The notes below the pieces were generated by a model that was not told where the DNA came from, ran no database searches, and saw only the letters and a program-made list of their open reading frames with translations. Source: Geothrix sp. (GTDB taxonomy: Bacteria; Acidobacteriota; Holophagae; Holophagales; Holophagaceae). Taken from it: a stretch of 64,000 nucleotides of DNA. The stretch lies in assembly GCF_030219325.1 (NCBI RefSeq), contig NZ_CP126625.1, positions 372,001 to 436,000 on the forward strand, given 5' to 3'. Position 1 is the stretch's first letter. Every line of letters starts with the position of its first letter. Position numbers and translations under genes: made by a program. Positions 1,495-24,947 of this stretch are shown one piece after another.

Positions 1495-1905
1495 TTGGAT
1501 CACCCGCCACCCTTCCACTCTCCGAGACCGGAGAAGTCCCCGCCCCTCCGTCGGCGCGGCCTGCTCCTGAGTCTGGTGCTCCTGGCGGGTTGCACGCCGC
1601 CGCTGCTGAGGCAGGCGCAGCCCGCCGAGCTTCGGGCGGAGTGGCTGGCCTTCCTGGTGGATGGGAGGACCACTCGGGAGGAGGTGCTCCTCAGGCTCGG
1701 AACGCCCAGCGCCCACCTCGAGGGGGAGCGGATCCTCACCTACGCCTTCTCCAGACGGGCCTCTGGCGCGCGGACCCGGGAGGGACGGAGCCTGGACCGG
1801 GAACAGAAGGTGCCCGTCTTCCGGGCCCACGGCATGGAGAACCTGGTGCTGGTCTTCGCGGCCGACGGCAGCCTGATCCGCCACAGCCTGGTGGTGTCCG
1901 AATGA
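1495..1905 (+). CDS. BamE/SmpA-like lipoprotein, copy 2 of a tandem triplet
   Basis: A TTG start at 1495 precedes a signal peptide whose hydrophobic core ends in the lipobox LLAGC. The mature region has DGRTTREEVLLRLGTPS, nearly identical to copy 1, the strand RILTYAF, and LVLVFAADGSLIRHSL. The start is uncertain because the N-terminus before the hydrophobic core is long and proline-rich. It lies 9 bases after copy 1 and its stop overlaps the start of copy 3 (ATGA), so the three are translated together. Confidence 0.75.
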   Translation: MDHPPPFHSPRPEKSPPLRRRGLLLSLVLLAGCTPPLLRQAQPAELRAEWLAFLVDGRTTREEVLLRLGTPSAHLEGERILTYAFSRRASGARTREGRSLDREQKVPVFRAHGMENLVLVFAADGSLIRHSLVVSE

Positions 1906-2309
1906 GGCGCCCCGGCGCCCCGCTCATGGGCATCCTGGCCCTATCGCTCTCGCTCGGCTGCGTGATCTGGCCTTTCCCGACGGGGAGCCTGCTCGCCGGG
2001 CGGGGGCGGATCACCCGGGACTACGCCGCCCCCCTCCAGGTGGGCGTGACCACCCGCGAGGACGCGCTGCTTCGCCTGGGCGAGCCGGACGAGGTGCTGG
2101 AGGGCGGCAAAGTCCTCATCTACCGCTGGACGGAAGTGAGGGGCTTCTTCGCCGCGGGCGGTTACGGCGGCGCAGTCGTGGCGATTCCCTTCTCCGGTCA
2201 TCGGGCCGTGCGGCTCAAGTTCGGCGTCGATGGGCGCCTGGTCCACCTCGGGTTCGAACGGGGAGCCCCCGCGTCGCCGGCGGATCCAGAGTCCAGCGGG
2301 AAACCCTGA
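1902..2309 (+). CDS. BamE/SmpA-like lipoprotein, copy 3 of a tandem triplet
   Basis: The start ATG overlaps the stop of copy 2 by four bases. The signal peptide ends in LSLGC. The mature domain carries VGVTTREDALLRLGEPD, then KVLIYRW and VRLKFGVDGRLVHLGF, the same sequence of elements as its two neighbours, with a glycine-rich insertion (residues about 85-100) that the others lack. It is the most diverged of the three. The gene ends in a perfect hairpin shared with the convergent smpB. Confidence 0.72.
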   Translation: MRRPGAPLMGILALSLSLGCVIWPFPTGSLLAGRGRITRDYAAPLQVGVTTREDALLRLGEPDEVLEGGKVLIYRWTEVRGFFAAGGYGGAVVAIPFSGHRAVRLKFGVDGRLVHLGFERGAPASPADPESSGKP

Positions 2310-2327
2310 GGCGCGAAGATCGCGCCT
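2309..2327. terminator. Bidirectional hairpin between copy 3 and smpB
   Basis: A perfect 8-bp stem, AGGCGCGA at 2309-2316 and TCGCGCCT at 2320-2327, with a three-base loop. It overlaps the stop codons of both convergent genes. There is no T-tract, so termination is inferred from position and symmetry. Confidence 0.5.
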
Positions 2328-2781
2328 ACTCCCGCGCGCCCTTCCGGATGCGGTCCATCTCACGCTTCTGCTCCCGCTGCTTCAGGGCCTCGCGCTTGTC
2401 GCCCACGGCCTTGCCTTCGGCCAGCGCCACCTTCACCTTGATCATGCCCTTCTCGTTGAGGTAGATGGCCAGGGGGATGATGGTGAGGCCCTTGCGCACC
2501 ACCTTGGCGGTGATCTTGGTGATCTCGGCCTTGTGCAGCAGGAGCTTGCGGGCCCGCAGGGGATCGTGGTTGGCGTAGGTGCCGAACTCGTAGGGTGAGA
2601 TGTGGGCCTGCTTGAGCCAGAGCTCGCCGCCCACGGCGTCCACGTAGGCGTCCTGCAGCTGTCCCAGGCCCGCCCGCAGGGCCTTCACCTCGGTGCCCTG
2701 GAGCGCGACGCCGGCCTCCCAGGTCTCGAGGACGTGGTAGTTGTGCAGGGCCTTGCGGTTGCGGACGAGATCCTCGGACAT
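2326..2781 (-). CDS. smpB: SsrA-binding protein SmpB
   Basis: Binds tmRNA and delivers it to stalled ribosomes for trans-translation. The 151-residue protein has the expected length and features: N-terminal RNRKALHNYHVLETWEAG, the conserved GTEVKALRAG loop, HISPYE, and the basic C-terminal tail rich in K and R (KREALKQREQKREMDR) that enters the decoding channel. No ssrA gene is seen in the window. Confidence 0.96.
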   Translation of the reverse strand: MSEDLVRNRKALHNYHVLETWEAGVALQGTEVKALRAGLGQLQDAYVDAVGGELWLKQAHISPYEFGTYANHDPLRARKLLLHKAEITKITAKVVRKGLTIIPLAIYLNEKGMIKVKVALAEGKAVGDKREALKQREQKREMDRIRKGARE

Positions 2782-2828
2782 ACGGACAGTGTAGCCTCCC
2801 GGTAGACTCGTCCTTTTGGGATGCCTCC

Positions 2829-3485
2829 ATGCTGCAGAAGCTCCTCGCCCCCATCGTCGCCTGGATGGTGGCCCTCATGGCCGCCATGGGGCCCCTGGGC
2901 GTCATGCTGCTCATGGCCATCGAAAGCGCCTGCATTCCGCTGCCCAGCGAGGTGATCATGCCCTTCGCCGGGTACCTCGCCTACAAGGGCCAGCTCACCT
3001 TCTTCGGTCTGGGCGCGGGCAACCCCGTGGCGCAGATCTGGATCGCGGGAATCTTCGGGGCGCTGGGCTGCAACCTGGGCAGCATTCCTGCCTACGAGGT
3101 GGGCGCCTGGGGTGGACGCCGCGCCGTGGAGAAGTACGGCCGCTACATCTGGCTGCACACGGGCCACCTGGACCAGGCCCACCGCTTCTTCGAGCGCTTC
3201 GGCACCTGGGCCATCTTCATCGGTCGCCTGCTGCCCGTGGTGCGCACCTTCATCGCCCTGCCTGCGGGCATCGCCAAGATGGACCGCACCCGCTTCCACC
3301 TCTACACCTTCGCCGGCAGCCTGCCCTGGTGCCTGGCCCTGGCCTGGGTGGGCTACAAGCTGGGCGAAAAGTGGAACACCCTGGGCGCCTACTTCCACAA
3401 ACTCGATGCCGTCATCGGCGTGCTGATCCTGGCGGGTGTGGCGTGGTTCATCTATGACCACGTCAAGAGCCGGGTGAAGGGTTGA
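2829..3485 (+). CDS. DedA-family integral membrane protein
   Basis: DedA proteins are inner-membrane transporters implicated in undecaprenyl phosphate or phospholipid recycling. This 218-residue protein shows the family landmarks ESACIPLPSE near residues 35-44 and the re-entrant motif GRLLPVVRTFIALPAG near residues 134-149, with four to five hydrophobic segments. It is divergent from smpB with about 45 bases between the starts and stands alone. Confidence 0.88.
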   Translation: MLQKLLAPIVAWMVALMAAMGPLGVMLLMAIESACIPLPSEVIMPFAGYLAYKGQLTFFGLGAGNPVAQIWIAGIFGALGCNLGSIPAYEVGAWGGRRAVEKYGRYIWLHTGHLDQAHRFFERFGTWAIFIGRLLPVVRTFIALPAGIAKMDRTRFHLYTFAGSLPWCLALAWVGYKLGEKWNTLGAYFHKLDAVIGVLILAGVAWFIYDHVKSRVKG

Positions 3486-3511
3486 GGGCCCACTTCAGGG
3501 CGTGAGCGCGG

Positions 3512-5461
3512 TCAGGTCTTGAGCCGGGCCGCCACCGCGTCCAGGTGCTCCTTCAGGTCCCTCATGCTGAAGGGCTTGGGGATGAGGGTGACGCCGGGGT
3601 AGGTGCGGGCCAGCTCCAGGGCCGCCTGATCGACGCGGCCCGTGGCGAGGAACACCGGCAGGTCGGGGTGCCGGTCGCGGAGCAGGGGGAGGGTGCCCTG
3701 CCCACCCAGGCCGGGCATGTTCATGTCGAGGATGATGACCTGGGGCACCTTCCCGGCGGCCAGGCGCCCGAGCGCCTCTTCGCCGCTGAATGCCAGCGTG
3801 ACGCGATGCCCCAGGCAGCGGATCACCGGCCCCAGCGTGGCCCTGATCAGCTCGTCGTCGTCCACCAGCAGGATGTCCATGGGACGGGCTGTTTCGCCCA
3901 GCCCGCCCAGGGGCGGAGGGGTTTCTTCAACCACCGTGAAGTCGATGGTGGGGAACCGGAGGGTGACCCGGGTGCCCTTTCCGGGCTCACTGTGCAGTTC
4001 CATGGTGCCCTGGTGGGCGTTCACCGTGCTGTAGACGATGGAGAGCCCCAGGCCGGTGCCCTTGTCCGGGGGCTTGGTGGTGAAGAAGGGGTCCATGGCC
4101 CGCTCCAGCACCTCGCTGGGCATGCCGGTCCCCGTGTCCTCCACCTCGAGCTCGACCCAGCCCCGGTGTCCCGGACGGGTGCGGAGGTGGAGCTCGCCGC
4201 CCTCCGGCATCGCGTCGACGGCATTGAGGCAGAGGTTCATGACGGCATGGACGAGGGCGCTGGAGTCGCCGCGGATGAATGGCAGCTGCGGCGCCAGCTC
4301 CGTGGTGCACTGGACCCGCCCGAGGGTGGTGCGCTCCAGCAGCAGGACCTCCTCCTGGAGCAGGATGTTCAGATCGACCACCTTGGTTTCCGTGAGGTCC
4401 TGGCGGGCGAAGTCCAGCAGGCGGCGGACCAGGCCGCCGCCCCGCTGGCAGGCCCGGGCGATGATGGAGAAGGCCTGCTGGGCGGGCGAGTCCGCGGGAT
4501 GGAGCTCCTGGTGCATGGAGGCCATGCCGAGGATGGAGCCGAGCACGTTGTTCATGTCGTGGGCGACGCCGCCGGCAAGGCTCCCCAGGCTTTCCATCTT
4601 CTGCGAGCGCTGCAGCTGGCGCTCGAGCTGAAGGCGGTTCTCCTCGGCCTTCCGCAGGCTCGTGATGTCGAGGTGGGACACCACCAGCCGGGCTGGACCG
4701 AGGCCCTGGAAGGGGGTGACGAGGGCCTGGAACCAGCGCTGCTGGCCGGGGGAGTGGCAGGGGTATTCGAGGGTGAACTCCGGCAATCCCCCCAGCAGCA
4801 CGGCCTTCATCCCCTCCGCCATGGCCTGGGCCGTGTCGGCATCGGCACCCGTCGCCCGCGCGCAGACATCCAGGTAGTTGACGCCTTCCCAGGGGAAGCC
4901 GGCGGGCAGGCCGTTGGCGGAGGCGAAGTCCTGCCAGGCCCCGTTGACCTTGAGGATCCGGCCCTCCCCGTCCAGCACCGTGAGGTTGTGCCTCAGGGCA
5001 TCGAGGATCCGGTCGGCGAAGCGCTCGGAGTCGCGGAGCGCCTGCTGCGCCGCCACCCGCTCGCTGATGTCCCGGGAGTTGACCACGATGGCCTGGACGG
5101 AGGGCGTGTCCAGGAGGTTGACGGCCACCGCCTCCATCCAGATCCAGGAGCCGTCCTTGCGCGCATAGCGATACTCCACCCGCACCGGCTGCCCCGGCTG
5201 GGCGAGGCAGGCCTGGAAGGCCTCGCCGACGCGCGGCGCATCCTCCTGGTGGAAGAACTCGAAGGTGCTGCGTCCATCCATCTCCTCGGGGCTGAAACCG
5301 TGCAGACGCTGGGCGGCCGGCGAGTTGTAGATGAGGCGCCCCTCCCCGTCGAGGAGGGAGAGGATGTCCCAGGAATAGGCCAGAAGAGCCTGCATGCGGT
5401 CGTGGCTCAGGCCCGCAGACGCTGGATCGGCCATTGAACGCACGCGCTCCGGGTTCGACAT
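3512..5461 (-). CDS. Hybrid sensor histidine kinase: PAS-PAS-HisKA-HATPase-receiver
   Basis: A 649-residue soluble kinase with no membrane segment. Two PAS domains come first (about residues 15-130 and 145-265), then the H-box GSLAGGVAHDMNNVLGSI with the phospho-acceptor His, an HATPase domain with N-box NLCLNAVDAM and G-boxes DTGTGMP and GTGLGLS, and a C-terminal receiver with DDDE, the phospho-acceptor in ILDMNMPG and a conserved Lys in PKPF. The ATG at 5461 was preferred over a GTG at 5470 and an ATG at 5434. No partner regulator is adjacent, so the output may go through phosphotransfer to a distant protein. Confidence 0.9.
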   Translation of the reverse strand: MSNPERVRSMADPASAGLSHDRMQALLAYSWDILSLLDGEGRLIYNSPAAQRLHGFSPEEMDGRSTFEFFHQEDAPRVGEAFQACLAQPGQPVRVEYRYARKDGSWIWMEAVAVNLLDTPSVQAIVVNSRDISERVAAQQALRDSERFADRILDALRHNLTVLDGEGRILKVNGAWQDFASANGLPAGFPWEGVNYLDVCARATGADADTAQAMAEGMKAVLLGGLPEFTLEYPCHSPGQQRWFQALVTPFQGLGPARLVVSHLDITSLRKAEENRLQLERQLQRSQKMESLGSLAGGVAHDMNNVLGSILGMASMHQELHPADSPAQQAFSIIARACQRGGGLVRRLLDFARQDLTETKVVDLNILLQEEVLLLERTTLGRVQCTTELAPQLPFIRGDSSALVHAVMNLCLNAVDAMPEGGELHLRTRPGHRGWVELEVEDTGTGMPSEVLERAMDPFFTTKPPDKGTGLGLSIVYSTVNAHQGTMELHSEPGKGTRVTLRFPTIDFTVVEETPPPLGGLGETARPMDILLVDDDELIRATLGPVIRCLGHRVTLAFSGEEALGRLAAGKVPQVIILDMNMPGLGGQGTLPLLRDRHPDLPVFLATGRVDQAALELARTYPGVTLIPKPFSMRDLKEHLDAVAARLKT

Positions 5462-5521
5462 CGCTGGCACCTGTGGGGTGCCTGACTATATACCCGGGCC
5501 GAAGGCTACTGCATCACAGCT

Positions 5522-6484
5522 TCAGTTCGCGAACCGGTCCGTGGCGGAGACCAGCGCCCGCGAGATGCCGGCATCGTAGGCGCTGTGGCCGGCGTCCGGC
5601 ACGATGACGAGATCCGCCTCGGGCCAGGCCTTGGACAGGGCCCAGGCGCTCTCGATGGGGCAGACCATGTCGTAGCGGCCCTGGATGATGGCGCCGGGGA
5701 TGCCCTTGAGCTTCGGCGCATCGCGCAGCAGCTGGGCTTCACTCATCCAGCCCTTGTTCAGGAAGTAGTGGCATTCGATGCGGGCGAAGGCCAGGGTGGT
5801 GGCCTCGTCGCCGTAGGAGGCGATGAAGTCGGGATCGGGGATCAGCTTGCTGGTGGCGCCCTCCCAGATGCTCCACGCCTTGGCCGCGGGCAGGTTCACG
5901 GCCGGATCCTCGCTCAGCAGACGCTTGGCGTAGGCGCCCATGAAGTCGCCGCGCTCCGCTTCGGGGATGGCGTCGCGGTAGGGCTCCCAGGCATCGGGAA
6001 AGATGCGGCTGGCACCCTCCTGGTAGAGCCAGTCCACCTCGCGCTGGCGCAGCAGGAAGATGCCGCGGAGGATCAGCCCCGTCACGCGCTCCGGGTGCTC
6101 CTCCGCGTAGGCCAGGCCCAGCGTGGCGCCCCAGGAGCCACCGAAGACCATCCAGCGCTGGATGCCCAGGTGCTCGCGGATGCGCTCGACGTCGGCCACC
6201 AGGTCCCAGGTGCTGTTTTCGCGCACGTCGGCGTAGGGCGTGCTCGCGCCGCAGCCGCGCTGGTCGAAGAGGATGATGCGGTACTTCTCTGGATCAAAAT
6301 AACGGCGGTGCTTGGGGCTGGTGCCGCCGCCGGGCCCGCCGTGGAGGAAGACGACCGGCTTGCCGTTTGGATTGCCGCTCTCCTCGACATGCAGCTCGTG
6401 CAGGTCCGAGACCTTGAGCCGCTGGACCTTGTACGGCTCGATGGGCGGATAGAGCCAGCTGACGGGATCCTTGCGAAGCGGCAT
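5522..6484 (-). CDS. pip: Proline iminopeptidase (alpha/beta hydrolase)
   Basis: Removes N-terminal proline from peptides. The 320-residue protein has the oxyanion-hole motif HGGPGGG, the family signature DQRGCG, the nucleophile elbow GGSWG and a C-terminal GRYDMVCP plus DAGHS carrying the catalytic Asp and His. The ATG at 6484 has a good AGGAG five bases upstream; a longer frame to 6511 is less likely. A repeat element lies just upstream. Confidence 0.92.
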   Translation of the reverse strand: MPLRKDPVSWLYPPIEPYKVQRLKVSDLHELHVEESGNPNGKPVVFLHGGPGGGTSPKHRRYFDPEKYRIILFDQRGCGASTPYADVRENSTWDLVADVERIREHLGIQRWMVFGGSWGATLGLAYAEEHPERVTGLILRGIFLLRQREVDWLYQEGASRIFPDAWEPYRDAIPEAERGDFMGAYAKRLLSEDPAVNLPAAKAWSIWEGATSKLIPDPDFIASYGDEATTLAFARIECHYFLNKGWMSEAQLLRDAPKLKGIPGAIIQGRYDMVCPIESAWALSKAWPEADLVIVPDAGHSAYDAGISRALVSATDRFAN

Positions 6485-6530
6485 GGGAACTCCTGTTCCA
6501 GGTATGTGCAATCACGAATTGAAATAATTT

Positions 6531-6628
6531 TCACCGCCAAGGCGCCAAGGGCGCCAAGAAAAGCAAGAGATGAGGTTTTATTTCTCTTGGCGTCTTGGCG
6601 TCTTGGCGTCTTGGCGTCTTGGCGGTGA
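6531..6628. repeat. 98-bp extragenic element with five tandem TCTTGGCG units
   Basis: The element has perfect 11-bp terminal inverted repeats (TCACCGCCAAG at 6531-6541, CTTGGCGGTGA at 6618-6628). The right half holds five exact copies of the 8-mer TCTTGGCG (6585-6624); the left half has variants of the complementary unit, CGCCAAGG and CGCCAAGA, so the whole can fold as a long hairpin. It sits between the start of pip and the end of the EamA gene. Similar GCCAAGACGCCAAG strings are, to my memory, scattered in genomes of several phyla, but I cannot search here. Confidence 0.8.
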
Positions 6629-6654
6629 CTTTTTTTGGCCGCACGAATGGGTCG

Positions 6655-7542
6655 CTAGACAAAGAACAACGCCGCTGCGCCTGCCAGGGCCAGCAGTGTC
6701 CCGAGGATGGCATGGCCGCCCACCTTCTCCTTGAAGACAAAGTGGGACACGGGCAGCAGGAGGATGGGCGACAGGGACATGAGGGTGGCGGCCACGCCCA
6801 TGGGGGCCTTGGCGATGGCGATGAGGGAGAGCACCACGCCCAGCACCGGGCCGGTGACCGCGCCGAGCCCGATGAAGGCCGTGGCCCGGCCATCGCGCAG
6901 GGCGCCGAGCGTCCCCCGCAGGCGGCCCGTGGCGCCGAACCAGAGCAGGAGCGCCGCCACGCCCGCGGTGACGCGGATGAGGTTGGCGGAGATGGGCGGG
7001 AAATCCCCTGCCAGGCCGAACTTGCTGAAGACCAGGCCGATGGACTGGCCCAGGGCGCCCCCGATGCCCAGCAGGATGCCACGCCAGAGGTGGGGATGCT
7101 TCTCGTGGTCGCCCCCGCCCCACACCACCCAGGCGATGCCGCCGAGGGTGACGGTCATGGCCAGGAGCTTGGGCAGGGTCAGGGCCTGGCCCAGGAACAG
7201 CCAGGCGAGCAGCGCGCTGAAGATGGGCGAGAGCGTCATCAGCAGCATGGCGAGCCGGGCGCCGATGAGCACGAAGGCCTCGAAGAGCACCGCGTCGCCC
7301 AGGGCGAAGCCGATGAGCCCCGACACGCCCAGCCAGCCCAGGCGGGCGCCGCCGGCCTGCATCGGGAAGAGGCTGCCGTAGACCACCTGATGCACCAGCA
7401 GCAGCGTGGCCCAGGCCATGAGCAGGCGGCCCAGGTTCACCGCCGCCGAGCCCACGCGCCGGCCGGCCACCGTGAAGCAGACGGAGTTCAGGGACCAGCA
7501 GAGCGAGGTGAGGAGGGCGGCGCTTTCGCCGAGGTAGGGCAA
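6655..7542 (-). CDS. EamA/DMT-family transporter
   Basis: A 295-residue inner-membrane protein with about ten hydrophobic segments arranged as two EamA repeats (about residues 5-137 and 155-293), the usual drug/metabolite transporter layout. Substrate cannot be told. The start is a TTG at 7542, the only start that keeps the whole first helix. It is preceded by hemW-like on the same strand, with 70 bases between. Confidence 0.85.
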   Translation of the reverse strand: MPYLGESAALLTSLCWSLNSVCFTVAGRRVGSAAVNLGRLLMAWATLLLVHQVVYGSLFPMQAGGARLGWLGVSGLIGFALGDAVLFEAFVLIGARLAMLLMTLSPIFSALLAWLFLGQALTLPKLLAMTVTLGGIAWVVWGGGDHEKHPHLWRGILLGIGGALGQSIGLVFSKFGLAGDFPPISANLIRVTAGVAALLLWFGATGRLRGTLGALRDGRATAFIGLGAVTGPVLGVVLSLIAIAKAPMGVAATLMSLSPILLLPVSHFVFKEKVGGHAILGTLLALAGAAALFFV

Positions 7543-7613
7543 GGGGACTCCGCTGCGTTCCCCGGGGCGGCGGGGCCGAAGACATCATCATACGATGCCA
7601 ATGGCCTCCCGCC

Positions 7614-8792
7614 TCAGACGAACATCTGCAGGATGCCATTGCTCATGAGCATGCCCCTGGCCCCGAGGCGCACGTGGTCGCCTTCCCATATGACGAGGTC
7701 CTCCTTGGCGAGGCTGCGCAGGTGGGCCTCCCAGGCATCGCAGAGGGGGCGCAGGTTCCGGCGGTCGGCTTCGTGCCGCAGGGCCCCCCAGTCGAGGCCT
7801 CGGTGCATGCGCAGACCCAGCAGGGGGATCTCGGACAGGATCTCCGCGGCGTCCAACTCCTGAACGTCCGCTTGGCCGCGGCCTTCGGCCCAGGCGGGGA
7901 TGACGCTGGACTCGATCCATCGGAAGGGGCCCAGCTGGGAGGCGGCGCTGGGCCCCAGACCCAGGTAGGGACGGCGCTCCCAGTAGCGGGTGTTGTGGAT
8001 GGATTCGGCGCCGGGGCGGGCGTAGTTGCTGATCTCGTAGGGCAGGAGACCCTGTGCGGGCAGCTCGGCCTGGAGGGCCTCGAACACGTCGGCCACCTCG
8101 TCCTCCGAGGGCAGGACCAGCCGCCCCGCATCGATCTCGCCGCGCAGGGGGCAGGCCTTGTCCAGGTCCAGCAGGTAGATGCTGAGGTGCTCGAGGCCGG
8201 TGGCGGCCAGGACGCGGGCGTCCGCCACCACTTTTGACAGGGACTGTCCGGGGATGCCCACCATGAGATCCGCGCTGCGGCGCTGGAAGCCGGCCCGCTC
8301 TGCCAGCTCGAGGGACTCGAGGGCCTGGGCCGAGCCGTGGATGCGGCCCAGATGGGCCAGCAGGGTGTCGTCCAGGGCCTGCACGCCCAGGCTGATGCGG
8401 TCCCAGCCCAGGCCGCGCGCCTGGCTCAGCCAGGCCAGGTCCACGGTGCCGGGGTTGGCCTCCAGGGTGGCTTCCGCCAGCGGCCCCAGGTCGAAGGCCT
8501 GCCGCACGGCCGCCGTGAGCGCCTCCAGTTCATCGGCCGCCAGCAGGGAGGGCGTGCCGCCGCCCAGGTAGAGCGTATCCACCGCGGGCCGTTCCAGGGC
8601 CGCGCCCCAGGCGGTCACCTCGGCGATGAGGCGCCGGATCGTCTCCGGCTGGAGGGCCCGGTCCCGCGTGGTGGTGAAGGAGCAGTAGGTGCAGCGGTCC
8701 AGGCAGAACGGGACATGGAGGTAGAGACCCAGGGGTTCGGACCGGGCCGCCCTCCGGAGTTCGGGCAACCGGCGCCCGAGCTCAGGGTTCAA
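7614..8792 (-). CDS. hemW: HemW-like radical SAM protein
   Basis: HemW is a haem chaperone related to coproporphyrinogen dehydrogenase. The 392-residue protein has the N-terminal HVPFCLDRCTYCSF with the three Cys of the radical-SAM cluster, the GGGTPS motif, EANPGT, and a C-terminal domain with YEISNYARPG, HNTRYW and YLGLGPSA, all typical of HemW rather than of HemN. The start is a TTG at 8792. It overlaps the end of the upstream DUF4124 gene by 11 bases. Confidence 0.88.
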   Translation of the reverse strand: MNPELGRRLPELRRAARSEPLGLYLHVPFCLDRCTYCSFTTTRDRALQPETIRRLIAEVTAWGAALERPAVDTLYLGGGTPSLLAADELEALTAAVRQAFDLGPLAEATLEANPGTVDLAWLSQARGLGWDRISLGVQALDDTLLAHLGRIHGSAQALESLELAERAGFQRRSADLMVGIPGQSLSKVVADARVLAATGLEHLSIYLLDLDKACPLRGEIDAGRLVLPSEDEVADVFEALQAELPAQGLLPYEISNYARPGAESIHNTRYWERRPYLGLGPSAASQLGPFRWIESSVIPAWAEGRGQADVQELDAAEILSEIPLLGLRMHRGLDWGALRHEADRRNLRPLCDAWEAHLRSLAKEDLVIWEGDHVRLGARGMLMSNGILQMFV

Positions 8793-22529: not shown

Positions 22530-22690
22530 CTTGGACCTCTCGGCTGTGATTGGACCACCAGCCTATCGAGTTCCGGACCTTGGGGCCACTCTTCTCCACC
22601 CTCCAGAGTGAGAGGGCCTATCCTAATGGATACCCATCGATCTGGAATCCACCTTTGTCCCACCTTGCCTCCAATCCATCTGCTCCTCGG

Positions 22691-23554
22691 GTGGGCGGTC
22701 CCCCCGCCCTTGGCGCCCCCGTTCCGGATCTTCCCCCCACCCTCCAGCCAGCGGCCATCTTCCGGGCGGCACCTCCGCGGGATCGGCGGCTCAGCGCCCT
22801 GGTGACCCTGAATGTCTATGGGGGGCTGCTGCTGCTGGTCTGGGCCTGGAGCCGCCCCCCTGGTGCCGGGCGGCTCCGGGAGGCCCCGCGGCAGACCATG
22901 ACCCTTCATCTCGAGGAACCCCCCGCTCAGGGCGCGCCGAGCCCGAGCCCCTTGATCCAGGCCGGTGCCGCCTCCCCGGAGCACGCAGTCAGCGCGCTCA
23001 CGTTCACTCCGGATCCGATCGCTTCGGACCTGATCCTGCCGATGTCCGACGCGTTACATGACCTGCCGGAACCATCCCAGACCCATCCGGTGCCCGTGGA
23101 TCCCGGCCCTGTGACCCATGCTGGAGTGGGCCACGGGACCGGGCCGGGGGGCAGCGCTGGGAAGGGGTTTCCCAAAGAATCGGGACGGACCATGTTCCGC
23201 GCCGTCCCGGGCCTGAATCCGGGGTTGGATCTGAACGACCTGGAGGTAATCCACGAAGAGATCCCGTCCTACCCATTCCTGGCTGAATGGGGGCGGATCC
23301 AGGGAGACGTGGTGGTGCGGGTCACGATCAACGAGAAGGGTTTCCCCATTCGCACCGAACTGCAGGAGGGGCCCGAGGCCCTTCAGTCCGAGACGATGCG
23401 GGCCGTGAAGCTCTGGCGCTTCGGTCGCGGAATCTTCCGCGGCCAGAAGGTGGATGCCACCTTCGACATGACCTTCCGCTACATCCTTCGTGAGAGCTCT
23501 AGAGCGACCTCGCCAGCTCAAGGCCAGCCTCGGTCCGGCTCAGGTACCAGGTGA
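22691..23554 (+). CDS. TonB-like energy transducer
   Basis: One membrane helix near the N-terminus (LVTLNVYGGLLLLVWAW), a long Pro/Ala/Gly-rich periplasmic spacer, and a C-terminal TonB fold with GRIQGDVVVRVTINEKGFP and ETMRAVKLWRF. The start is uncertain: no ATG exists; GTG at 22691 keeps a sensible cytoplasmic tail, TTG at 22550 would add 47 residues. No exbB/exbD or TonB-dependent receptor is adjacent. Its 3' end overlaps the convergent nuclease fusion by 56 bases. Confidence 0.75.
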   Translation: MGGPPALGAPVPDLPPTLQPAAIFRAAPPRDRRLSALVTLNVYGGLLLLVWAWSRPPGAGRLREAPRQTMTLHLEEPPAQGAPSPSPLIQAGAASPEHAVSALTFTPDPIASDLILPMSDALHDLPEPSQTHPVPVDPGPVTHAGVGHGTGPGGSAGKGFPKESGRTMFRAVPGLNPGLDLNDLEVIHEEIPSYPFLAEWGRIQGDVVVRVTINEKGFPIRTELQEGPEALQSETMRAVKLWRFGRGIFRGQKVDATFDMTFRYILRESSRATSPAQGQPRSGSGTR

Positions 23555-24947
23555 GGGCACGGCCATCCACGAGGCGCACCTCGGCGGACGGGAAGCGCTT
23601 TTGCAGTTCGGTCTGGTGCCGGCGGTTGAAGCGATAGGGTTCGCTGGGCAGCAGGATGAGCCGGGGGGCGAGGTCCTGCAGATCCTCTTCAGTTAGCACT
23701 GGGTAGCGATCCGGGCCGATGGGCGTGAGGTTGCCCTGGCGCAGGAGGTCGCCAATGTAGGTGTCCGGCCCGGCGCTCATCCAGGGCTCCTTCCAGACCA
23801 GGGCCAAGGTGCGGGGGCCCTTGCGGCGGCGACCCTTCAGGGCGGTCTCCAGCGCGGTTGCGCGAAGCTCGGCGGCCTCCGGGACGCCCAGCCTCGCACC
23901 CAGCTGGCGGAGCGCCGCCGCGCAATCCTTCACGCTGCGGATCTCGAGGGCCAGCCAGGGGAGGCCCAGGGCTGTCAGGGCCTCGGCGACCTCCTTCGGG
24001 TTCTCGTCGCGCTCGAGGATCACCAGATCCGGTGCCAGGTCACGGATGCGGCGGAGGTCAGGATCCTTGGTGCCGCCCACGGTGGGTACGGAGTTGCGGA
24101 TCCACCGGGGCTCGATGCAGTAGCGGGTGCGGCCCACGAGTTGCGCGGCCAGGCCCCACTGCACCAGGAGTTCGGTGACTGAGGGCACCAGGCTCACGAT
24201 GCGCAGGGAGCCGCTGGCAGAAGACGTCGGAGGACTGATGGCGCTGGCCGGGAGGCCGGGAACCGAAGCCTGGAGTTTCACACCCAGGTGCGGGTCTTTC
24301 GCCTTGCCCAGCCCCGTGGGGCAGAGATCCAGCAGGGTGCAGGCGCCGCAGTCGGGGCGGCGGGCATCGCAGACGCGGCGGCCGTGGAAGATGAGCTGGT
24401 GGTGCAGCTCGATCCAGTCCTCCCGCGGGAAGCGGCGGCAGAGGTCGGCCTCCACCTTCTCCGGCGTGGTGGCCCTGGACAGCCCCAGGCGCCGCGCCAC
24501 GCGGAAGATGTGGGTGTCCACGGCCAGGGCGGGCACGCCGAAGGCATTGGCCAGCACCACGTTGGCGGTCTTCTGGCCCACGCCCGGCAGGGCGCCCAGG
24601 GCCGCCGGATCCGAAGGCACCACGCCGCCGTGCCGCGCCATCAAGGCCTGGCCGAGGCCGATGAGGTTCCGGGCCTTGTTGTGGTAGAAGCCCGTGGAGC
24701 GGATGAGACCTTCCAGTTCCTCCAGGCGGGCTCCTGCCAGGCTGGCGGCGTCGGGGAAGCGGGCGAAGAGGGCCGGCGTGGTGAGGTTCACCCGGGCATC
24801 TGTGCACTGGGCGCTCAGGATGGTGGCCACCACCAGCTGGAAGGGATCCGCGTGGTCCAAGGCGCAGCGGGCGTCGGGATAGGCGCTGCGCAGGCGGGCC
24901 TGGAGATCACCGGGCTTGGGCCTGGGCTTGGACTTGGGAAGGCTCAT
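23499..24947 (-). CDS. Endonuclease III fused to a BtuF-like metal/cobalamin receptor domain
   Basis: Residues 1-210 are a complete endonuclease III: helix-hairpin-helix LPGVGQKTANVV with the catalytic Lys, the catalytic Asp in AVDTHIFR, and the 4Fe-4S site C-x6-C-x2-C-x5-C (CDARRPDCGACTLLDLC). Residues about 235-482 resemble the helical-backbone metal receptor family (BtuF/FepB type): IVSLVPSVTELL, the run PTVGGTKDPDLRRIRDLAPD, and DLAPRLILLPSEPY. No signal peptide or stop separates the halves, so the receptor domain would be cytosolic. The frame is continuous over the junction; there is no sign of a frameshift. The ATG at 24947 was chosen over a GTG at 24968. Confidence 0.85.
   Translation of the reverse strand: MSLPKSKPRPKPGDLQARLRSAYPDARCALDHADPFQLVVATILSAQCTDARVNLTTPALFARFPDAASLAGARLEELEGLIRSTGFYHNKARNLIGLGQALMARHGGVVPSDPAALGALPGVGQKTANVVLANAFGVPALAVDTHIFRVARRLGLSRATTPEKVEADLCRRFPREDWIELHHQLIFHGRRVCDARRPDCGACTLLDLCPTGLGKAKDPHLGVKLQASVPGLPASAISPPTSSASGSLRIVSLVPSVTELLVQWGLAAQLVGRTRYCIEPRWIRNSVPTVGGTKDPDLRRIRDLAPDLVILERDENPKEVAEALTALGLPWLALEIRSVKDCAAALRQLGARLGVPEAAELRATALETALKGRRRKGPRTLALVWKEPWMSAGPDTYIGDLLRQGNLTPIGPDRYPVLTEEDLQDLAPRLILLPSEPYRFNRRHQTELQKRFPSAEVRLVDGRALTWYLSRTEAGLELARSL

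Follow-up and report, generated by a model that had tools for sequence, protein, structure and literature searches.

An endonuclease III joined in one reading frame to a leaderless class III solute-binding-protein fold in Geothrix and its family

The window, by which we mean the whole 64,000-nucleotide stretch of Geothrix sp. contig NZ_CP126625.1 that was analysed (positions 372,001 to 436,000), carries a single open reading frame at 23499-24947 on the minus strand that begins with ATG, encodes 482 amino acids plus a stop, and constitutes a whole fusion gene. The product is composed of an endonuclease III (Nth) domain (residues ~8-222), a linker (~223-246) and a domain with the class III solute-binding-protein (SBP) fold (247-482; hereafter, the receptor or C-domain). 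A gene for a TonB C-terminal-domain protein (22550-23554, plus strand) converges on the fusion gene, and the 3' ends of the two overlap by 56 bases (23499-23554). The 482-residue protein was modelled by AlphaFold2 from 59 aligned proteins of the window and the loci, with a mean pLDDT of 91.5. We saw no internal start that is both conserved and accompanied by a Shine-Dalgarno-like site, so one translation product is expected. Pairwise dN/dS is ~0.07-0.18 for the Nth half and ~0.07-0.26 for the C-domain and is relaxed in the linker; judged from these ratios, purifying selection acts on both halves. The features of the gene are as follows.

23499-24947, minus strand: complete gene for the fusion (482 aa and a stop codon; frame shared by 58 genomes of the family)
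24282-24926, minus strand: endonuclease III domain, residues 8-222 (TIGR01083, E 2e-74; 1orp, Z 28.0)
24549-24635, minus strand: helix-hairpin-helix (HhH), residues 105-133 (PF00633)
24570-24572, minus strand: catalytic lysine K126, within the HhH (invariant in fused proteins)
24516-24518, minus strand: catalytic aspartate D144 (invariant in fused proteins)
24321-24371, minus strand: 4Fe-4S cysteines C193, C200, C203 and C209 (C-X6-C-X2-C-X5-C, invariant)
24210-24281, minus strand: variable linker, residues 223-246 (pLDDT, length variation, relaxed dN/dS)
23502-24209, minus strand: leaderless TroA/BtuF-fold domain, residues 247-482 (NF038402, E 2e-43; BtuF 1n2z, Z 24.3)
24066-24119, minus strand: cleft residue C277 and GGTK, G291-K294 (alignment of 27 fused and 25 stand-alone proteins)
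24000-24014, minus strand: cleft residues E312, E315 and N316 (alignment, fused and stand-alone)
23793-23795, minus strand: cleft tryptophan W385 (invariant, fused and stand-alone)
23640-23642, minus strand: E436 of the EPY/FxF motif (alignment, fused and stand-alone)
23547-23549, minus strand: W467 (invariant, fused and stand-alone)

The Nth half matches TIGR01083 over residues 16-200 with 249.1 bits, against a cut-off of 211.7, and both the HhH-GPD and HHH Pfam domains are found in it. Residues 8-227 of the AlphaFold2 model superpose on DNA-bound EndoIII (PDB code: 1orp), and MutY is among the Foldseek and VIA-align matches to this half. K126, D144 (which corresponds to D138 of the E. coli enzyme) and the cluster motif C193-X6-C200-X2-C203-X5-C209 are invariant among 23 aligned fused proteins. 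Holophagaceae Nth proteins, with or without the receptor domain, carry a DPHxG-like motif (24282-24293 in the window) after the final cysteine of the cluster; the DPH is present in all of them, and the glycine is missing from some of the unfused ones. In all 10 of the 10 fused genomes tested the fusion is the only Nth at the level of TIGR01083, and base-excision repair must therefore run through it; the window's genome also encodes a separate MutY-size paralog of 371 aa. From its retained residues, the Nth half is probably a working glycosylase.

The C-domain matches NF038402 (TroA_like, 'helical backbone metal receptor') over residues 249-468 with 148.9 bits against a cut-off of 30, and PF01497 with an E value of 2e-12. 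Residues 246-482 of the model superpose on E. coli BtuF (PDB code: 1n2z) with a Z-score of 24.3 and rmsd of 2.4 over 231 aligned residues. Taken together, these profile matches and the two superpositions uphold the proposal of the first-pass annotation that one frame holds a complete endonuclease III and a full receptor domain. That annotation had also treated a receptor without a signal peptide as an oddity, which was overstated: the domain belongs to a family, NF038402, that is itself leaderless and occurs as stand-alone proteins in many Acidobacteriota, where the protein starts directly at the domain. The suggestion that the domain is intracellular fared better, as it lies C-terminal to a cytosolic enzyme in a single frame, has no leader and is preceded by no conserved internal start; a cytosolic location is thus probable.

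Residue equivalences between fused, stand-alone and BtuF proteins were taken from sequence alignment. C277, G291, G292 and K294 are invariant in 27 fused and 25 stand-alone proteins, and T293 is found in 27 and 23, respectively. E315 and N316 are invariant throughout; position 312 is Glu in all fused proteins and Asn, Asp or Ala in the stand-alone ones, while position 436 is Glu in 25 and Asp in two of the fused proteins and Glu in all 25 stand-alone proteins. Also common to both groups are P388, T396 (Ser in three fused proteins), P437, F440 and G462. The family's cleft signature (C/GGTK/EN/W/EPxxF/W) is accordingly present in every fused protein, save for E436D in two, and since it is near-invariant in fused and stand-alone members alike, the domain very likely still binds the ligand of its NF038402 family. 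The earlier impression that this half looks like a ligand-binding domain is consistent with the alignment. The fused proteins share changes relative to the stand-alone ones at W264, E312, I336, P409 and L469, which could mean a shifted ligand or an interface.

The C-domain was found in 63 of the 77 genomes of the window's GTDB-type family, which span Geothrix and other genera and include the named isolates G. fermentans, paludis, campi, terrae, limicola and others. A search for the same fusion in relatives, as the first-pass annotation had proposed, returned an uninterrupted frame of 460-858 aa in 58 of the 63 (frames longer than the protein merely read upstream of the start), and the other five are cut at contig ends. 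The full-length alignment comprises 27 fused proteins; the others are called fused by frame length, and for many Geothrix genomes the call is also backed by full-length matches. Long frames in G382, G155 and G132 were considered as further fusions and rejected as upstream read-through in high-GC DNA. No unfused C-domain was found among the 77 genomes. Of the 14 that lack the domain, eight carry Nth alone, which indicates that Nth does not need the C-domain, and six, mostly incomplete, showed neither. The unfused Nth mostly stops soon after the DPHxG motif, the one that stands before the linker in fused proteins as well, and no C-domain remnants were found beside the stand-alone Nth genes. Plasmid and phage collections and IMG/VR returned no fusion, with phage matches covering Nth alone.

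Relatives with two separate adjacent genes, which had been raised as an objection to a true fusion, were not found, and the genes of unfused relatives are unlinked. In the order of the nearest stand-alone relative (G362) Nth and receptor are separate genes; in G042 and G390, closed genomes of other families, they lie >1 Mb and ~0.2 Mb (across the record's ends) apart, respectively. A reading of two adjacent genes as one was rejected, as beyond the family Nth and the receptor occupy separate, non-adjacent genes. In a tree of the C-domain the fused rows group together without exception (SH-aLRT 91, from a quick method), pointing to one fusion event. In the tree built from Nth the two kinds of row are intermixed, with three label changes, and the unfused G086 falls inside a fused group with a weakly supported placement. 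These trees resolve the deep branches poorly and leave the root unfixed; one gain followed by several losses is the simplest reading of them. In genus g16 (L080, L081 and L082), with genomes of 0.9-1.2 Mb, the fusion is kept with an 8-residue linker.

Between the two halves, residues 231-244 are predicted to be disordered (AlphaFold2 pLDDT under 50), and the distance from the DPHxG motif to the receptor domain ranges from 8 residues in g16 up to 53. The pTM is 0.75 for the window protein and 0.70 for the g16 form, despite pLDDT above 91, so the domain arrangement is not confidently fixed even with the shortest linker. We read a C-domain that is dispensable in relatives, a variable linker and an unconfident arrangement together as two largely autonomous beads.

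On balance, we favour a genuine two-domain cytosolic protein in which a working glycosylase is loosely tethered to an autonomous ligand-binding domain. The Nth half would do the ordinary work of endonuclease III in base-excision repair, as a bifunctional DNA glycosylase/AP lyase. The receptor half would hold a soluble ligand in the cleft of its leaderless class III fold, as its stand-alone NF038402 relatives must, and so keep the family's ancestral ligand function. With a flexible tether between them the halves would behave largely as separate beads, and the fusion would serve to co-express and co-locate both activities, and the ligand might mildly tune repair. The protein does not belong to an uptake transporter. 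Glycosylase activity, ligand binding, cytosolic localisation and loose coupling are what we infer for the protein. Loose coupling may understate the importance of the physical link, as is suggested by its retention throughout the family, even in g16, and by the lack of any unfused C-domain in the family.

It is possible, if rather unlikely, that binding in the cleft gates repair, with a metabolite, metal or redox signal altering the activity or DNA affinity of the attached glycosylase. Such gating would fit a fusion of single origin retained across genera and in reduced genomes, and the C-domain residues that are conserved specifically in fused proteins. The two halves also change in step (their distances correlate with r 0.91, or 0.74 without the g16 pairs), although common descent alone would give that. 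However, the linker varies from 8 to 53 residues, no fixed arrangement is confidently predicted, and several relatives keep Nth without the C-domain. For the broader proposal of a ligand-responsive glycosylase, in which a solute-binding fold brought into the cytosol would let a small molecule, metal or metal complex set the activity of endonuclease III or the state of its cluster, the chances are slightly better but still well short of even; if true, base-excision repair in Holophagaceae would be coupled to metabolic, metal or redox state.

An invariant cysteine and two invariant Glu/Asp positions line the region aligned to the ligand cleft, so that metal or metal-complex sensing by the receptor half is possible from the alignment. 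More specifically, the receptor half could bind iron or another metal species and protect, load or sense the 4Fe-4S cluster of Nth, as Cys277, E315 and E436 in this region, the complete set of Nth cluster cysteines and the family name would allow. We regard this as improbable, given that stand-alone members have no Fe-S partner and that the eight unfused relatives run the same Nth without a receptor domain.

A similarly improbable alternative is that the C-domain is a cytosolic binder or sensor of corrinoid (B12), or a leaderless part of B12 uptake. BtuF is the best fold match, and 'BtuF-like', as the domain was first described, holds for the fold of the structure model. It does not hold for the B12-contact and docking residues. 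W66 and W85 of BtuF, which contact B12, correspond to T293 and E312, invariant in the fused proteins; Glu72, which docks BtuC, corresponds to R299 in the window and is variable across fused and stand-alone proteins. The numbering and the contact and docking roles are those of BtuF, matched to its sequence in the alignment; the second docking glutamate (E202) was placed by hand alignment and is left out of the comparison. Several of the residues shared by fused and stand-alone proteins lie on or beside B12-contact positions: Y276/C277 align with Y50/S51, T293/K294 with W66/Q67 and E315/N316 with G88/N89. As the tryptophans and Glu72 are replaced while the cleft is constrained, the constraint is for something other than BtuF's mode of B12 binding.

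Besides the fusion, the genome encodes a single further PF01497 protein, an SBP with a leader. This SBP is encoded ~106 kb away, in an operon that also holds genes for a TonB receptor, a BtuC-type permease and an ABC ATPase and is preceded by a cobalamin riboswitch (L189:7820-8044, G000:C1:504819-505043); the BtuF of this TonB receptor, BtuF, BtuC, BtuD operon obtains low scores from BtuF models. The unfused family members G075, G096 and G086 retain an SBP and riboswitch of this kind, as do G060 and G061 of g16. No Rfam riboswitch was found in the window. With B12-contact and docking residues lost and a separate uptake operon present, a BtuF transport role was rejected, and transport is excluded as the main role of the fusion.

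Gene context was rejected as a clue to the ligand: across the 29 loci from Acidobacteriota treated as stand-alone, only close relatives have neighbouring genes in common. A scan of 24 of the loci returned no Rfam element, which further argues against a corrinoid link. Two stand-alone-type loci that lie beside transporter genes speak for one. In L137 (G117, 4697-8125) the gene order is a secreted PF01497 SBP, a leaderless NF038402-type protein, then FecCD permease and ABC ATPase, with no cobalamin riboswitch found near this locus; a leaderless receptor inside an uptake operon is a lead to the ligand of the family. In L145 (G262, 1641-7999) two leaderless PF01497-type genes, of 275 and 313 aa, stand beside genes for a TonB-dependent receptor and an ABC ATPase, and the second of them bears a SHECDFP motif. 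L146 was rejected as an NF038402 member, being a secreted SBP.

The first-pass annotation had further raised reuse of the receptor for DNA or nucleotide binding. Here the fold would aid lesion recognition by binding DNA or else a base or nucleotide, perhaps a damaged one, as its attachment to a DNA glycosylase and the precedent of MutY, whose extra C-terminal domain reads DNA, might suggest. This is unsupported and still less probable, in that stand-alone members, which have no DNA-repair domain, carry the identical cleft signature and no fixed orientation towards the DNA-binding half is confidently predicted. An artefact of sequencing, assembly or gene calling, including an error at the junction, is refuted, as the identical single frame recurs in 58 genomes from separate assemblies, among them closed chromosomes and named isolates, and partial copies stop at contig edges.

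Endonuclease III is among the most uniform of repair enzymes, and a solute-binding fold on its sole copy across many genera is unusual. The fusion offers a way into the question of which ligand is bound by the leaderless, widespread proteins of the 'helical backbone metal receptor' type, for which nothing useful was found in the literature on the NF038402 family. The role of the domain can be tested directly, since the function of its partner is known, its cleft signature is conserved and naturally truncated forms exist in a single family. No report of an Nth-SBP fusion was found in a search that mostly excluded subscription journals. Both halves are known families, and the combination appears to be undescribed.

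In comparison to Nth proteins of known structure (E. coli 2abk; B. stearothermophilus 1orn/1orp/1p59), the identity is 42-45% over about 210 residues, and the whole fold, HhH, catalytic Lys and Asp and 4Fe-4S cysteines of the TIGR01083 type are all in the fusion, which is elaborated with a tail or linker of 25-60 residues and a C-terminal receptor domain of 236 residues. Stand-alone NF038402 proteins share the cleft signature, and the fusion differs from them by its attachment to Nth and the changes at 264, 312, 336, 409 and 469. With periplasmic, B12-binding BtuF of E. coli (1n2z, 1n4a) the C-domain has the bilobed class III SBP fold in common, but it is leaderless and 21% identical. MutY likewise is an HhH-GPD glycosylase with an extra C-terminal domain; that domain is MutT-like, reads 8-oxoG in DNA, and is unrelated to the receptor domain of the fusion. 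The EndoIII-GIY-YIG (COG1833) fusion of Methanococcales (MJ0613 and MMP0538; PMC1564403) is similarly a C-terminal addition in one small lineage whose relatives have two genes (PMC1564403). There, however, the partner is a nuclease domain with an obvious role on DNA, whereas the partner in Geothrix is a ligand-binding fold.
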